A stretch of 64,000 bases of DNA from Prorocentrum cordatum. Lineage: Eukaryota > Sar > Dinophyceae > Prorocentrales > Prorocentraceae. The stretch spans positions 553,501 to 617,500 of the forward strand of contig CAUYUJ010014338.1 of the NCBI GenBank assembly GCA_963575745.1, given 5' to 3'. Position 1 is the stretch's first letter. Each line of letters starts with the position of its first letter. Positions 5,840-20,214 of the stretch are shown here, in pieces. The position numbers and the translations under genes were made by a program. The notes beneath the pieces were generated by a model. That model ran no database searches. It was not told where the DNA came from and worked only from the letters and a program-made list of their open reading frames with translations.

Positions 5840-5859
5840 CTGGCTTGATTTAGGGCGGA
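5840..5859 (+). repeat. left terminal inverted repeat
   Basis: CTGGCTTGATTTAGGGCGGA, an exact complement of 20,195-20,214. Weaker matching continues inward (GACTCAACC here, GGTTGAGTC at the other end). TTGA lies just outside. Confidence 0.75.
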
Positions 5860-5883
5860 GCTTTCGGACTCAACCGGCTCATC

Positions 5884-6190
5884 CTGTTTTTGCATCATCG
5901 TCATCATCATCGTCATCATCGTCGTCATGATATTCATCATCGTCCGCGTCATCGCCATCATCATCACCATCTCCTCATCATCGTCGTCATCATGATATCC
6001 ATCATCATCTCCTCGTCATCGTCATCATCATGTAGTGATGATGATGATTAAATCATGACCCGCATGACGATTACGGCGGCGTGTACATGATGATGCTGAT
6101 AATGATGATGACGATGATGATGAAGTCGATGATTGCGATGATGATGGCGATGTAGATGATGATGCTGATGATGATGCTGAGTACTGTGGC
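5884..6190. repeat. CAT/CGT microsatellite that switches strand
   Basis: (CATCAT/CGTCAT)n up to about 6,025, then (GATGAT/GATGAC)n on the same strand. The tract is thus an imperfect large palindrome just inside the left TIR. His-, Ser- and Met-rich frames across it are artefacts. Confidence 0.85.
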
Positions 6191-6220
6191 AGTCTAGTCG
6201 GATTCGGATACTGTTGCAGC

Positions 6221-7805
6221 CTAATCGGAATCGGAAAGCACCACGGCCTCCGTGGAAGCGGGCCACCGCATTTCGTCAAGCACCTCCGCGAGGTCGGGCA
6301 GCGCCACGGGGGCCCGTGCCAGGTGATCGGCCACGACGTGGTTCACGAAGTTGAAGAACTCCTTCGGGCCAGGCGTGGCGTCGATCCTGCGCGCCCTGTA
6401 CTCCCGAAAGACGTCGGAGCGGATCATGACGGCGATCTGCAGCCTGCTGTCGTCTACGTGCTGTTGCAGCTCGTGGTGGGTCGCGAAACAGTCCTGGCAG
6501 TCCGCGGAGGCGTGGCGGTGCGCGTTGTGCTCGAGGGAGGACAGGGTGCCCATGTAGAAACCCAGGCTTTTGCTCGAGGGTGACGACCCTTCCGCAGGAA
6601 GCCGTGCTCGAGGGCGACGCCCCATCACGTGCTCCCCCTGGGATCCTCACTTGCACGGAGCGCGCCCCGAAAAGCGCCGCGGCCGCGTGCAACAGGGGGC
6701 ATCCGCCATCTGCGTGCCAACCATCGCCCCGCGCGCCTGGTTGCATGAGCTGGATCGATGCGCACGCGAACGCGTTGTCGGCGAAGTGCCCTGTCATGAT
6801 GGGCTTTCCGTTCTGCTCGACGATGGCAGGTGGCGCGCCGTCGGCTTTGACAGCCTCGCGCATTGTGCATCCCAGCTGTTGCAGCCGCGGGCGCATCTTC
6901 CCCCGCAGCGCTCGCGCGAAGGCGGCCATGTGGGGCGAGGGGGTGATCTGCAAATCCCCGCCCTTGTTGAGGCTGCGGCACTTCGGGGGGCTTTCGTCGT
7001 CCACGATGCCAGCGACCTCTGTTTGCAAGCCCTGTGCCGCCTCGTCGCCTCGGACGCATTTGGAGACGGTAGCTCCCGTGTCCAGGCGCTCCTTGGCCAA
7101 GTTCTGCCAGCGCGGGTCTCTCTGCAAGAAGCGGAGCAAGTCTGGGTCCAGCTCCGCCTCCGCTATCGTGCCCGTGCCGTTTTTTCCCTGCGCCATGGAG
7201 ATGCGCGCGTCGAGCTGGGCGCCAGCCGGCTGCAGGAAGCGACGCGCCCTTAGACGGCTGATTGTCGCTCTGGCGCCAGGGTGCCAAAGCAGGCAGCTCT
7301 CGGCGGCTTCCAACAAGTCTGGGGGGCAGCCTGCAAGTTCGGCAACGGGCCAGCGCCCTCGGCCGTCGAGTGGCTTCGCTGTTTCAGCCTTTAGCCAATC
7401 CTCGCCCGACCGCTTGAACCACTTCTTAAAGAAAGGCAGGTTGTCCAGCCACGGGGCGGGATCCTCGTAACCGTAGTCTCCGGACCCTGGCTCCTCGCCT
7501 GGGATCCCCAAGACCTCCCTGAAGGTATCCACGAAGTCTTTCGGGTGCACCCATGGCTGCCCGATCGCGCCAAAAGGCTCTGGTTGGAACAACACCTGGC
7601 GCGCGTGCAACTCCGCGATCAGGCACCCGATGGACCAGATGTCCAGGTCCTCTGAGTAGCGCTGGTTCCCCAAGAAAGCGTCTACCGCTCTGTAAGCGGG
7701 CGCGCATACTCCGAGGTCATCGCAGGTCGGGCTGTAGCGCAGTTTCTTCTTCAACCTGTCGTGGGAATCCGCCATCTCCACACAGCCGAGGTCGCCGATC
7801 ACCAC
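6221..7805 (-). CDS. CDK-like protein kinase C-lobe fused to WHADGG (2OG-oxygenase-like) module; partial, frameshifted
   Basis: Read from 7,805 leftwards, residues 2-10 (VIGDLGCVE) are the DFG region with DLG. Residues 38-42 (YRAVD) stand where CDKs have YRAPE, and 55-60 are DIWSIG. The kinase lobe ends near LLWHPGARAT (~173-182). After a linker, WHADGG (363-368) has the HxD shape of 2-oxoglutarate/Fe(II) oxygenases. The frame shifts near 6,562. The last part (FYMGTLSSLEHN, RARRIDATPGP, then the stop at 6,221-6,223) lies in another frame (open 6,628-6,221), as if two bases were lost or one gained. The N-lobe and the HRD loop are absent, and DNA before 7,805 reads as a splice acceptor. I associate this fusion with dinoflagellate multicopy genes; its function is unknown. 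The changed APE and the frameshift suggest decay, but a sequencing error is possible. Confidence 0.72.
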
Positions 7806-7845
7806 CTGCGGAGAGGGGCGGATGGAGGAGAGGGGAGCGACGGCG
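7806..7845 (-). promoter_or_regulatory. probable 3' splice site before the kinase exon
   Basis: On the minus strand a long C/T tract (CTCCCCTCTCCTCC, CCCCTCTCCGCAG) ends in AG right before GTGGTGATCGGCGAC, where the kinase reading begins. This fits an intron whose upstream exon, coding the N-lobe, lies to the right in window coordinates and was not found in the repeats there. Confidence 0.55.
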
Positions 7846-7998
7846 ACTGAGCTCCCCCTGGAGGGAAGGGCGGGATAGAGGGCACGACGACGGCATCTCG
7901 GGGGAAGAGTGGAACCTCCCTTGTTAGAACTCGGTGTGAGACCTAAGATGAAGGCTAGTGAGGTGCAACATGATAGGCTGAGCTCTGACCTCGTATAT

Positions 7999-18060: not shown

Positions 18061-18665
18061 CCCTAATCGTCATCATCATCATCATCGTCGTCGTCAGCAT
18101 CATCATCATCATCATCATCATCATCATCGTCGTCGTCATCATCATCATCAGCATCGTCGTCATCATCATCATCGTCATCATCATCATCATCGTCATCATC
18201 ACCGTCATCATCGTAATCAGCATCCCCCATGGCCCATGGCCCTCCTCCTGCTCACCCTTTTTCCTGCTATCCTGCTCCTCCTGCTCCTCATCCTCCTCCT
18301 TCTCCTCCTCCTCACGCTCCCCCTCCCCCTACCCCCTCCCCTGGACCTGGACGGGGCGCCCCGCGGGTAGTTAGAGAGCCCAAGATGGCCCAAGACGGCT
18401 CCAAGAGCGCCTCGGAGAGCCCAAGATGACCTCCGAGATGCTTCAAGATAGCCTAAGATGCCTCAAGATGGCCCCGAAGATTCTCCAAGGGGCCCCAAGA
18501 ACGCTCCAAGACGGCTCCAAGAGGCCTCGGAGACCTCCAAGGAGGCCCCCAAGATGCCAAAACCTTTTAAAAACTTACAGAACATACATGATTTGTACCT
18601 TCTCGCCTTTTCGCTTCCGATGACCATCCGAGGCCCCAAGATGGCTCCCAGATGGCCCAAGAGGG
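18061..18665 (+). repeat. F2 module, copy f (+)
   Basis: The best-preserved F2 copy in forward orientation: (CAT/CGT)n, CATGGCCCATGGCCC, CTCCTC tract, CCTGGACCTGGACGGGG, then AGATGGCC words and TTAAAAACTTACAGAACATA. It joins F3c at the same point where F2d joins F3b (AGAGGGC/TGCTGCT). Confidence 0.8.
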
Positions 18666-19235
18666 CTGCTGCTACTGCTGCTGCTGCTAGTGGCAATGCT
18701 GCTGCAGGTGTTCGTGGTGTTGCTGCCGGTGCTGCCAGTGATGCTGCTGCTGCGGCTGTTGCTGCTGCTGCTGCTGCTGATGGCGCTGCTGCTGGTGCTG
18801 CTGCCGGTGCTAGCGCTGCTGCTTCTGGTGGGGGAGGGGGGGGGGGGCGGAGCGGAGGAGGAGGAAGGGGGGATGAGGGGGGGCGCGAGGAGGATGAGGA
18901 GCAGGAGAAGCAGGAGAGCAGGAAAAAAGGGTGAGCAGGAGGAGGGCCATGGGCCACGGGGGGATGCTGATTATGACGATGAGAACGATGATGATGATGA
19001 CGACGACGATGATGATGACGACGATGATGATGATGATGCTGAGAATGCCGATACTGCTGCTGCTGGCGATGATGATGATGGTGATGAAGATGATGAGGAG
19101 GAGGCAGAAGAAGAAGAAAGGCGAGGAGAGGGGGATGCAGGGCACGAGGCACAGGGGGATCAGGAGGATGAGCAGGAGGAGGAGGAGGACGACGACGACG
19201 AGGATTCGTGGGAGGATCACAGTGGAAGGTTGGAT
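18666..19235 (-). repeat. F3 module, copy c (-)
   Basis: (CTG)n-rich start, GGGCCATGGGCCACGG at ~18,946, GACGATGATGATG tract, GCCGATACTGCTGCTGCTG, then GATGCAGGGCACGAGGCACA. Together with F2f it repeats the F2d-F3b junction, pointing to duplication of a two-module block. Confidence 0.74.
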
Positions 19236-19900
19236 GGATGACCAGGTGCGTGGGAAAAAAGGAGAGGAAGATGAGGGGGCGGCTGCGGAGAGGATGAGTC
19301 GTCGTCGTCGTCGTCGCCGTCTTCACCTCGTCGTCCTCGTGGAAGTCGTCGCCGTCGTAAGGGCCCAACCCCATGCAGCTGCGAGTAACGCAGGACGACT
19401 CTCTCCTCATAGGTAGCGCTCCGCCAGAGGGGTGGAGCCCGAGGCATTGCGGATGGGGGCCGCGACGCGTCTGAGGGGGTTGCCGGAATGAGGCGGACGC
19501 GCAAAATGGAAATGCCCGGGAGCCCGCTGCGTCGGCAACTCCGTCGGCGCCGTCGGCGTCGGACCCTGCGTCAGCATCGGCGTCCGAGCTGTTGCAGCTG
19601 CCACGGCTTGGCGAAGCTGCCCTCGACGAGGCCGCCGAGGCCGCGCGGCTCGACGGGGCCGCTCTCGACGAGGCCGCACGGCTCGAGGATGCCGCTCTCG
19701 AAGAAACCGCCGCGGCCGCTGTCGAAGAAGCCACCGAGGGCGCTCTCGAAGAAGCAGGGCTCGGGGAAACCAAAGGAGAGGACGAGGCCGCAGGGCTCGG
19801 GGAGGCCGCAGGGCTCGGGGAAACCGAAGGAGGGCTCGGGGAAACCGCAGGGGCGGACGACGACATTACCTTGAGCCAAGTCCTACGGACCACAATGGTG
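19236..19900. other. unique GC-rich stretch, possible exon, strand unclear
   Basis: No similarity to the satellites. Minus strand: a frame over 19,504-19,217 contains SATYEERVVLRYSQLHGVGP, then in another frame PYDGDDFHEDDEV. This reads like real protein but changes frame. Plus strand: 19,592-19,865 gives a Glu/Ala-rich frame (EAALDEAA-type repeats) from a 12-15 bp minisatellite (GGGCTCGGGGAAACCG). I do not recognise either. It may be a fragment captured with the 14.4-kb segment. Confidence 0.3.
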
Positions 19901-19904
19901 ACGA

Positions 19905-20150
19905 TGGTGATGGTGATGGCGATGCTGATGGTATGGATGGTGATGATGATGATGATGATGATGACGATGATGATGATGATGATGATGATGATGGGGGTGG
20001 TGATGATGGTATGCTGAGGGCGGTTGTGATGGTGATGATGGTGATGGTGATGATGGCGATTCTGGATGTGATGAGCACCACCATCATCACCATCACCATC
20101 GCCACCACCATCAGCACTACGATTTGATAACCACCATCATTACAATCGTC
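19905..20150. repeat. GATGGT/GATGAT microsatellite near right TIR
   Basis: (GATGGT)n and (GATGAT)n to about 20,060, then ACCACCATCATC on the same strand. The strand switch mirrors the microsatellite inside the left end. Confidence 0.88.
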
Positions 20151-20194
20151 GTCGGCATCAAAACACAAAAAACACTCAACCGACTCAACCTAAA

Positions 20195-20214
20195 TCCGCC
20201 CTAAATCAAGCCAG
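20195..20214 (-). repeat. right terminal inverted repeat
   Basis: TCCGCCCTAAATCAAGCCAG, the exact complement of 5,840-5,859. It is followed by TTGA and then the array text TTGAAGGATTTTG. Confidence 0.75.

Follow-up and report, generated by a model that had tools for sequence, protein, structure and literature searches.

The genomes of dinoflagellates are of very great size, and introners ended by terminal inverted repeats (TIRs) abound in them. Such introners have been described with inverted repeats of 8-20 nt and direct repeats of 3-5 nt (PMC7789003), in Symbiodinium microadriaticum with TIRs and 4-bp duplications (PMC9860276), and as abundant constituents of the introns of Prorocentrum cordatum (PMC10666404); for Amoebophrya, the authors, in the excerpts of their paper, could not tie the spread of introners to a transposase (PMC7789003). 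Among other described elements, Pack-TIR and Pack-MULE carry gene fragments between TIRs and are moved in trans, and Polinton/Maverick, Teratorn and Starship elements are gene-rich and exceed 20 kb (excerpts of PMC6431247). Here we compare with these systems a 14,375-bp insertion, at positions 5840-20214 of a 64,000-nucleotide stretch of P. cordatum DNA that we call the window (G000:C13489:553501-617500; G+C content 58.8%). The terminal anatomy of this element, with TIRs of 20 nt and a duplication of 4 nt, equals that of dinoflagellate introners as given in the excerpts of the sources cited (PMC7789003, PMC9860276, PMC10666404). Unlike introners, which are intronic and for which these excerpts describe no gene cargo, the present family reaches 33 kb and carries genes, and its window copy lies in a satellite array.

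Very probably, the insertion belongs to a family of giant (~33 kb) DNA transposons of the cut-and-paste type, as a non-autonomous member that has undergone internal deletion and rearrangement. This reading is supported by a sharp end common to the family with unrelated sequence in the flanks, by the 20-bp TIRs, by a 4-bp duplication at two loci, by empty sister sites, and by the presence in relatives of an R-end gene (most of those tested) and of an L-side kinase gene (both of those read that far), as well as by the homology of both ends of the window copy to giant copies, two of which, on contigs C148 and C1781, serve as the main references below. It agrees in part with the original prediction for this DNA, in which the insert had been read as a large and possibly non-autonomous element, bounded by TIRs and short target duplications, whose class was left open.

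The left (L) TIR, at positions 5840-5859, reads CTGGCTTGATTTAGGGCGGA, and the right (R) TIR, which is the exact reverse complement of it, occupies 20195-20214; the sequence has no other occurrence in the window, and the identity of the two ends comprises 20 bp, with none past base 20. TTGA stands outside both TIRs (5836-5839 and 20215-20218). Thus, the perfect repeats and the flanking TTGA that had been claimed from the letters of the window are both present. Judged by the window only, the boundary is ambiguous inasmuch as A5839 pairs with T20215, so that a TIR longer by one base (21 bp), with TG as a 2-bp duplication, would be equally possible; the 4-bp reading is settled by the C148 copy, which has TCGG on both sides with a non-pairing next base. 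A chance origin of the TIRs was considered and rejected, the probability of a 20/20 match being 1.6e-12 at two fixed places and ~0.003 for any pair in the window. Just internal to each TIR, at 5867 and 20182, GACTCAACC occurs in the same orientation and is absent from the rest of the window; it could be a protein-binding site.

The insertion is surrounded by a satellite array, and no gene was recognised near it. When the flanks were joined with one TTGA removed and aligned against 11 sister units of this array, nine crossed the junction without a gap, which bears out the claim that the array continues in register across the insert and provides the empty sites sought by aligning the flanks. In the unit at 35347, a gap of 1 nt lies immediately to the right of TTGA. 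The site at 33,777-33,800, which had been put forward as the empty counterpart, indeed lacks the insert but has a 5-nt gap of its own just left of TTGA. The parts of the window copy are as follows.

5836..5839, no strand: target duplication TTGA, left copy (from sequence; single copy in sister array units).
5840..5859, plus strand: L-end TIR, 20 bp (exact match to the R end; homologous L end in C148).
5840-6663, no strand: L terminus homologous to C148 (89.8% over 824 bp).
5860..6231, no strand: subterminal region of the L side, in which GACTCAACC and arrays of trinucleotides lie (from sequence).
5889..8231, no strand: L-side block common with the giant copy C1781 (89.4% over 2.3 kb).
6232..7810, minus strand: last exon of a kinase gene, consisting of the kinase C-lobe and, after it, a second domain in which a GWHTDGG-type motif is conserved (31 homologues).
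Near 6552-6571, minus strand: frame switch in this exon (frameshift).
8011..19204, no strand: mosaic of satellite modules in direct and inverted orientation, among them two palindromic satellites without other occurrence in the window.
18463-20136, minus strand: open reading frame (ORF) with the low-complexity start, and only this part, of the candidate transposase frame (compared with the L017 and L016 frames).
19519..20214, minus strand: R-side block of 696 bp (94.5% to C1781, 79.6% to C148).
20195..20214, minus strand: R-end TIR, 20 bp (exact match to R ends across the genome).
20215..20218, no strand: target duplication TTGA, right copy (from sequence and sister units).

The mirrored satellites noted earlier are present within the insert, and the cores of the two palindromic satellites are confined to it (37 occurrences inside and 0 outside, and 20 inside and 0 outside, within the window). 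The satellite core is partly common to the giant relatives: the satellite blocks match a part of C1781 at 13.4-16.3 kb with 82-84% identity. With what is left to it, 0.7 kb of the R side, 2.3 kb of the L side and the satellite core, the window copy is a non-autonomous derivative.

The ends are widespread in the window's own assembly (4,128,499,153 bases in 21,875 contigs; the published assembly of P. cordatum CCMP1329 comprises 4.15 Gb in 22,724 scaffolds with 59.7% G+C (PMC10666404)). A search of this assembly, proposed together with the original prediction, yielded 92 exact copies of the 20-mer, 44 on one strand and 48 on the other, as against none for the reversed control, so that further copies of the ends are present; in IMG/VR and in GTDB contigs, there were 0 exact matches each. 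Sequence was read for 82 of the 90 matches outside the window, and all 82 were R ends, that is, they continue like the right end of the window element, whose own L end is the sole L-type end with the exact 20-mer among the ends read. In pairwise comparisons of the first 8 loci, the start of homology falls, with few exceptions, at approximately TIR base 1. Over 60 positions in 83 ends (the 82 and the window R end), the fraction of the majority base is 0.26-0.52 outside the boundary and 0.77-1.00 inside it, the value of 1.00 at the first 20 inside positions being due to the selection of exact matches. The objection that the 20-mer might merely belong to a common dispersed repeat has no force here, because the 20-mer marks the exact outer edge of the repeat, with unrelated sequence beyond.

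The 83 ends fall into 73 flank clusters. Seven of these have several members, one owing to an event on C18747 and the others to the same flank on different contigs. As several ends share flanks in this way, 73 is a better count of insertions than 83. On C18747 (L028), three R ends at 6909, 8117 and 9333, ~1.2 kb apart and in one orientation, have an identical 12-nt flank, which is a local triplication of the end together with its flank. L010 and L073 have a common flank and a poly-T tract within the end, and in L010 the R sequence resumes past the tract.

A copy that is complete by its ends was found at C148:481170-514388; it is 33,219 bp long, with TIRs matching at 18/20 positions and TCGG on both sides. 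The C1781 and C148 copies are collinear in five long blocks with 85.7-94.1% identity over ~26 kb, with gaps and insertions between the blocks. Hence, as in class II elements with TIRs, the repeats lie at the exact boundary of the element (20/20 in the window, 18/20 in C148), which itself falls at TIR base 1, and both copies for which the two ends of one element were read have a 4-bp target duplication (TTGA and TCGG). A sister satellite-rich copy (L023+L095) has 9,704 of the 14,375 bases of the window element in common with it. In the giant copy L017, a second gene-like frame (6208-7521, 437 aa) was seen, for which a protease match in NCBIfam was sub-threshold (E 0.036) and was not used.

The kinase exon that had been claimed within the insert is there, on the minus strand at 6232-7810, with a weak Pfam match (E 2e-05, under the curated cut-off). 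Among 7,996 candidates scored, 31 were homologues, which start at or near the same exon start. The window exon is frameshifted and departs from 20 of 132 conserved positions, a departure exceeded, as a fraction, by two of the 31 homologues (P0033, 26/138, and P0034, 28/115), and a six-frame motif scan found no kinase N-lobe motif elsewhere in the window. Three parts of the gene lie on the L side of C1781, namely an N-lobe part (E 1.1e-4, under the curated cut-off), a part with the catalytic loop (E 1.9e-10) and the last exon, the latter split over two frames. For C148, the evidence consists in an L end homologous to the end of the window exon, the upstream exons lying beyond the part read. Thus, since both relatives (~30-33 kb) read that far carry the kinase gene on the L side, what had been taken for host gene sequence carried by this copy is cargo of the family, frameshifted and truncated in the window copy. 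In IMG/VR, 96 stretches fit a pattern for relatives of the kinase, and 0 were confirmed.

Next to the R end, the relatives carry another gene. In L016, it is split between two frames, with P0037 (728 aa) first and P0038 (590 aa) behind it. Of 7,993 candidates scored, 46 are homologous to P0037 at E <= 0.001, and the length of nine of these is 1,225-1,272 aa. In two copies the frame stays open, from stop to stop, for 1,219 and 1,138 codons. When the gene was mapped by tblastn with P0039 in 19 loci outside the window, it was found near the R end in 14, being only partial in L015 and L027; it was not found by this search in L012, L019, L026, L023 (which contains 1,902 N), C4447 or the window. Its conserved part begins ~800 bp inside the TIR in C1781. 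In Pfam searches at E <= 1, a zinc finger, zf-C17orf113 (PF25431), was matched by 25 of the 46 proteins (best 4e-07) and the dimerisation domain Dimer_Tnp_hAT (PF05699) by one, marginally (E 0.023). By eye, the protein also has what we take to be hAT-like motifs, which we treat as a lead and not as a test. We regard the R-end protein as the candidate transposase of the family, such as the original prediction had proposed to look for near related ends. The ORFs of the window element that were scanned gave no transposase match in Pfam, the weak kinase match being the only one. In the model of P0039, residues 920-1105 in the C-terminal part form the best-modelled piece, in blocks mostly with a predicted local distance difference test score (pLDDT) of 68-87.

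The mechanism can be envisaged as follows. A transposase encoded at the R end would recognise both 20-bp TIRs, cut the element out or copy it, and insert it with a 4-bp stagger, in the window at TTGA. The window copy would have been mobilised in trans because it cannot supply its own enzyme, other short copies would be served in the same way, and the kinase would travel as a standing cargo of the family. Several observations weigh against this view. Transposition itself was not observed, and matching target duplications were tested in two copies only. Five of the 19 loci are without the R-end gene, whose protein has no clear match to a catalytic domain by Pfam, Foldseek or PDB sequence. Specifically, alignment with solved structures (PDB) gave 0 matches at E <= 1, NCBIfam gave none, and the AlphaFold model is poor (mean pLDDT 53), with 0 Foldseek matches at E <= 0.001. 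No L TIR was found in the 800 bp read beyond the kinase gene of C1781, where the best match has 9 mismatches, and no L end within 16 kb (2,500 of these N) in L023+L095. On C4447 (L009, L010), two R ends, one with a long poly-T tract inside, point towards each other across 15.4 kb, and their flanks, TCAT and CAGT, do not match.

The alternatives were weighed against the same data. Repeats are dense in this region, and the sharing of flanks between some contigs shows that duplicated or haplotype contigs exist; one might therefore suspect an assembly artefact, with unrelated repeats put together and inverted 20-mers that arose by coincidence or misassembly. A misjoin, however, would not yield perfect TIRs, a 4-bp duplication and an array in register on both sides; moreover, the same sharp end recurs at 73 flank clusters and the second copy has a duplication of its own (TCGG), and we regard an artefact as exceedingly improbable. 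It is also unlikely that the window element is of the Pack type, a transposon that captured a host kinase piece and satellites in its own history: although the last exon is present alone and frameshifted, with no N-lobe motif in the window, the N-lobe, catalytic-loop and last-exon parts on the L side of C1781, and the homology of the C148 L end to both the window exon end and the L terminus, identify the fragment, unlike those of Pack-TIR and Pack-MULE elements, as a remnant of a gene carried by longer relatives. Capture of the kinase, if any, belongs further back in the history of the family.

It could be argued, in turn, that the element is a giant introner of the intron type, or a precursor of one, native to transcribed genes. 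The repeat structures described for introners point this way, as does the abundance of introners in P. cordatum, and the element terminates in AG on both strands. On the other hand, it is inserted in a satellite array without a recognised gene around it, and its relatives carry genes of their own, which leaves this possibility very improbable.

As to the placement of this transposon family, the zinc finger and the single marginal dimerisation match are reminiscent of hAT elements. These, however, have 8-bp and, in some cases, 5-6-bp target duplications, and no hAT catalytic domain was matched by Pfam; on account of the 4-bp duplication, we do not assign the family to hAT. The recombinase of Starships is of the tyrosine type. 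Polinton/Maverick, Teratorn and Starship elements are similar in size and gene content, but here the TIRs are of 20 bp, and no polymerase, integrase or capsid match was seen among the ORFs of the giant copies and the window that were scanned, a scan covering part of the ORFs. At the level of listings and abstracts, no published description of this family was found. It is possible, although we put it forward only tentatively, that these elements represent a new superfamily, made up of giant DNA transposons that carry genes and have a transposase lineage of their own, 4-bp duplications and a kinase as a regular part of their biology, spawning satellite-filled non-autonomous copies, with an enzyme that perhaps also moves the like-ended introners of dinoflagellates. 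With its two ends identified, a duplication of 4 bp and a protein proposed as its transposase, the family makes it possible to test where such mobility comes from. Furthermore, the shrinkage of a giant element with a kinase cargo to a satellite-rich short copy would be a possible route for the spread of palindromic satellites.

Elsewhere in the window, the same satellite array contains, at 22459-32571, a long terminal repeat (LTR) retroelement with 255-bp repeats at 96% identity and a copia-type reverse transcriptase match (RVT_2, E 1.5e-9), the long frame of which is broken by stops. There is also a tandem array with a period of ~89 bp at 42837-44190, and, at 49841-56540, tandem units of ~1.4 kb, each with open frames of ~300-400 aa.

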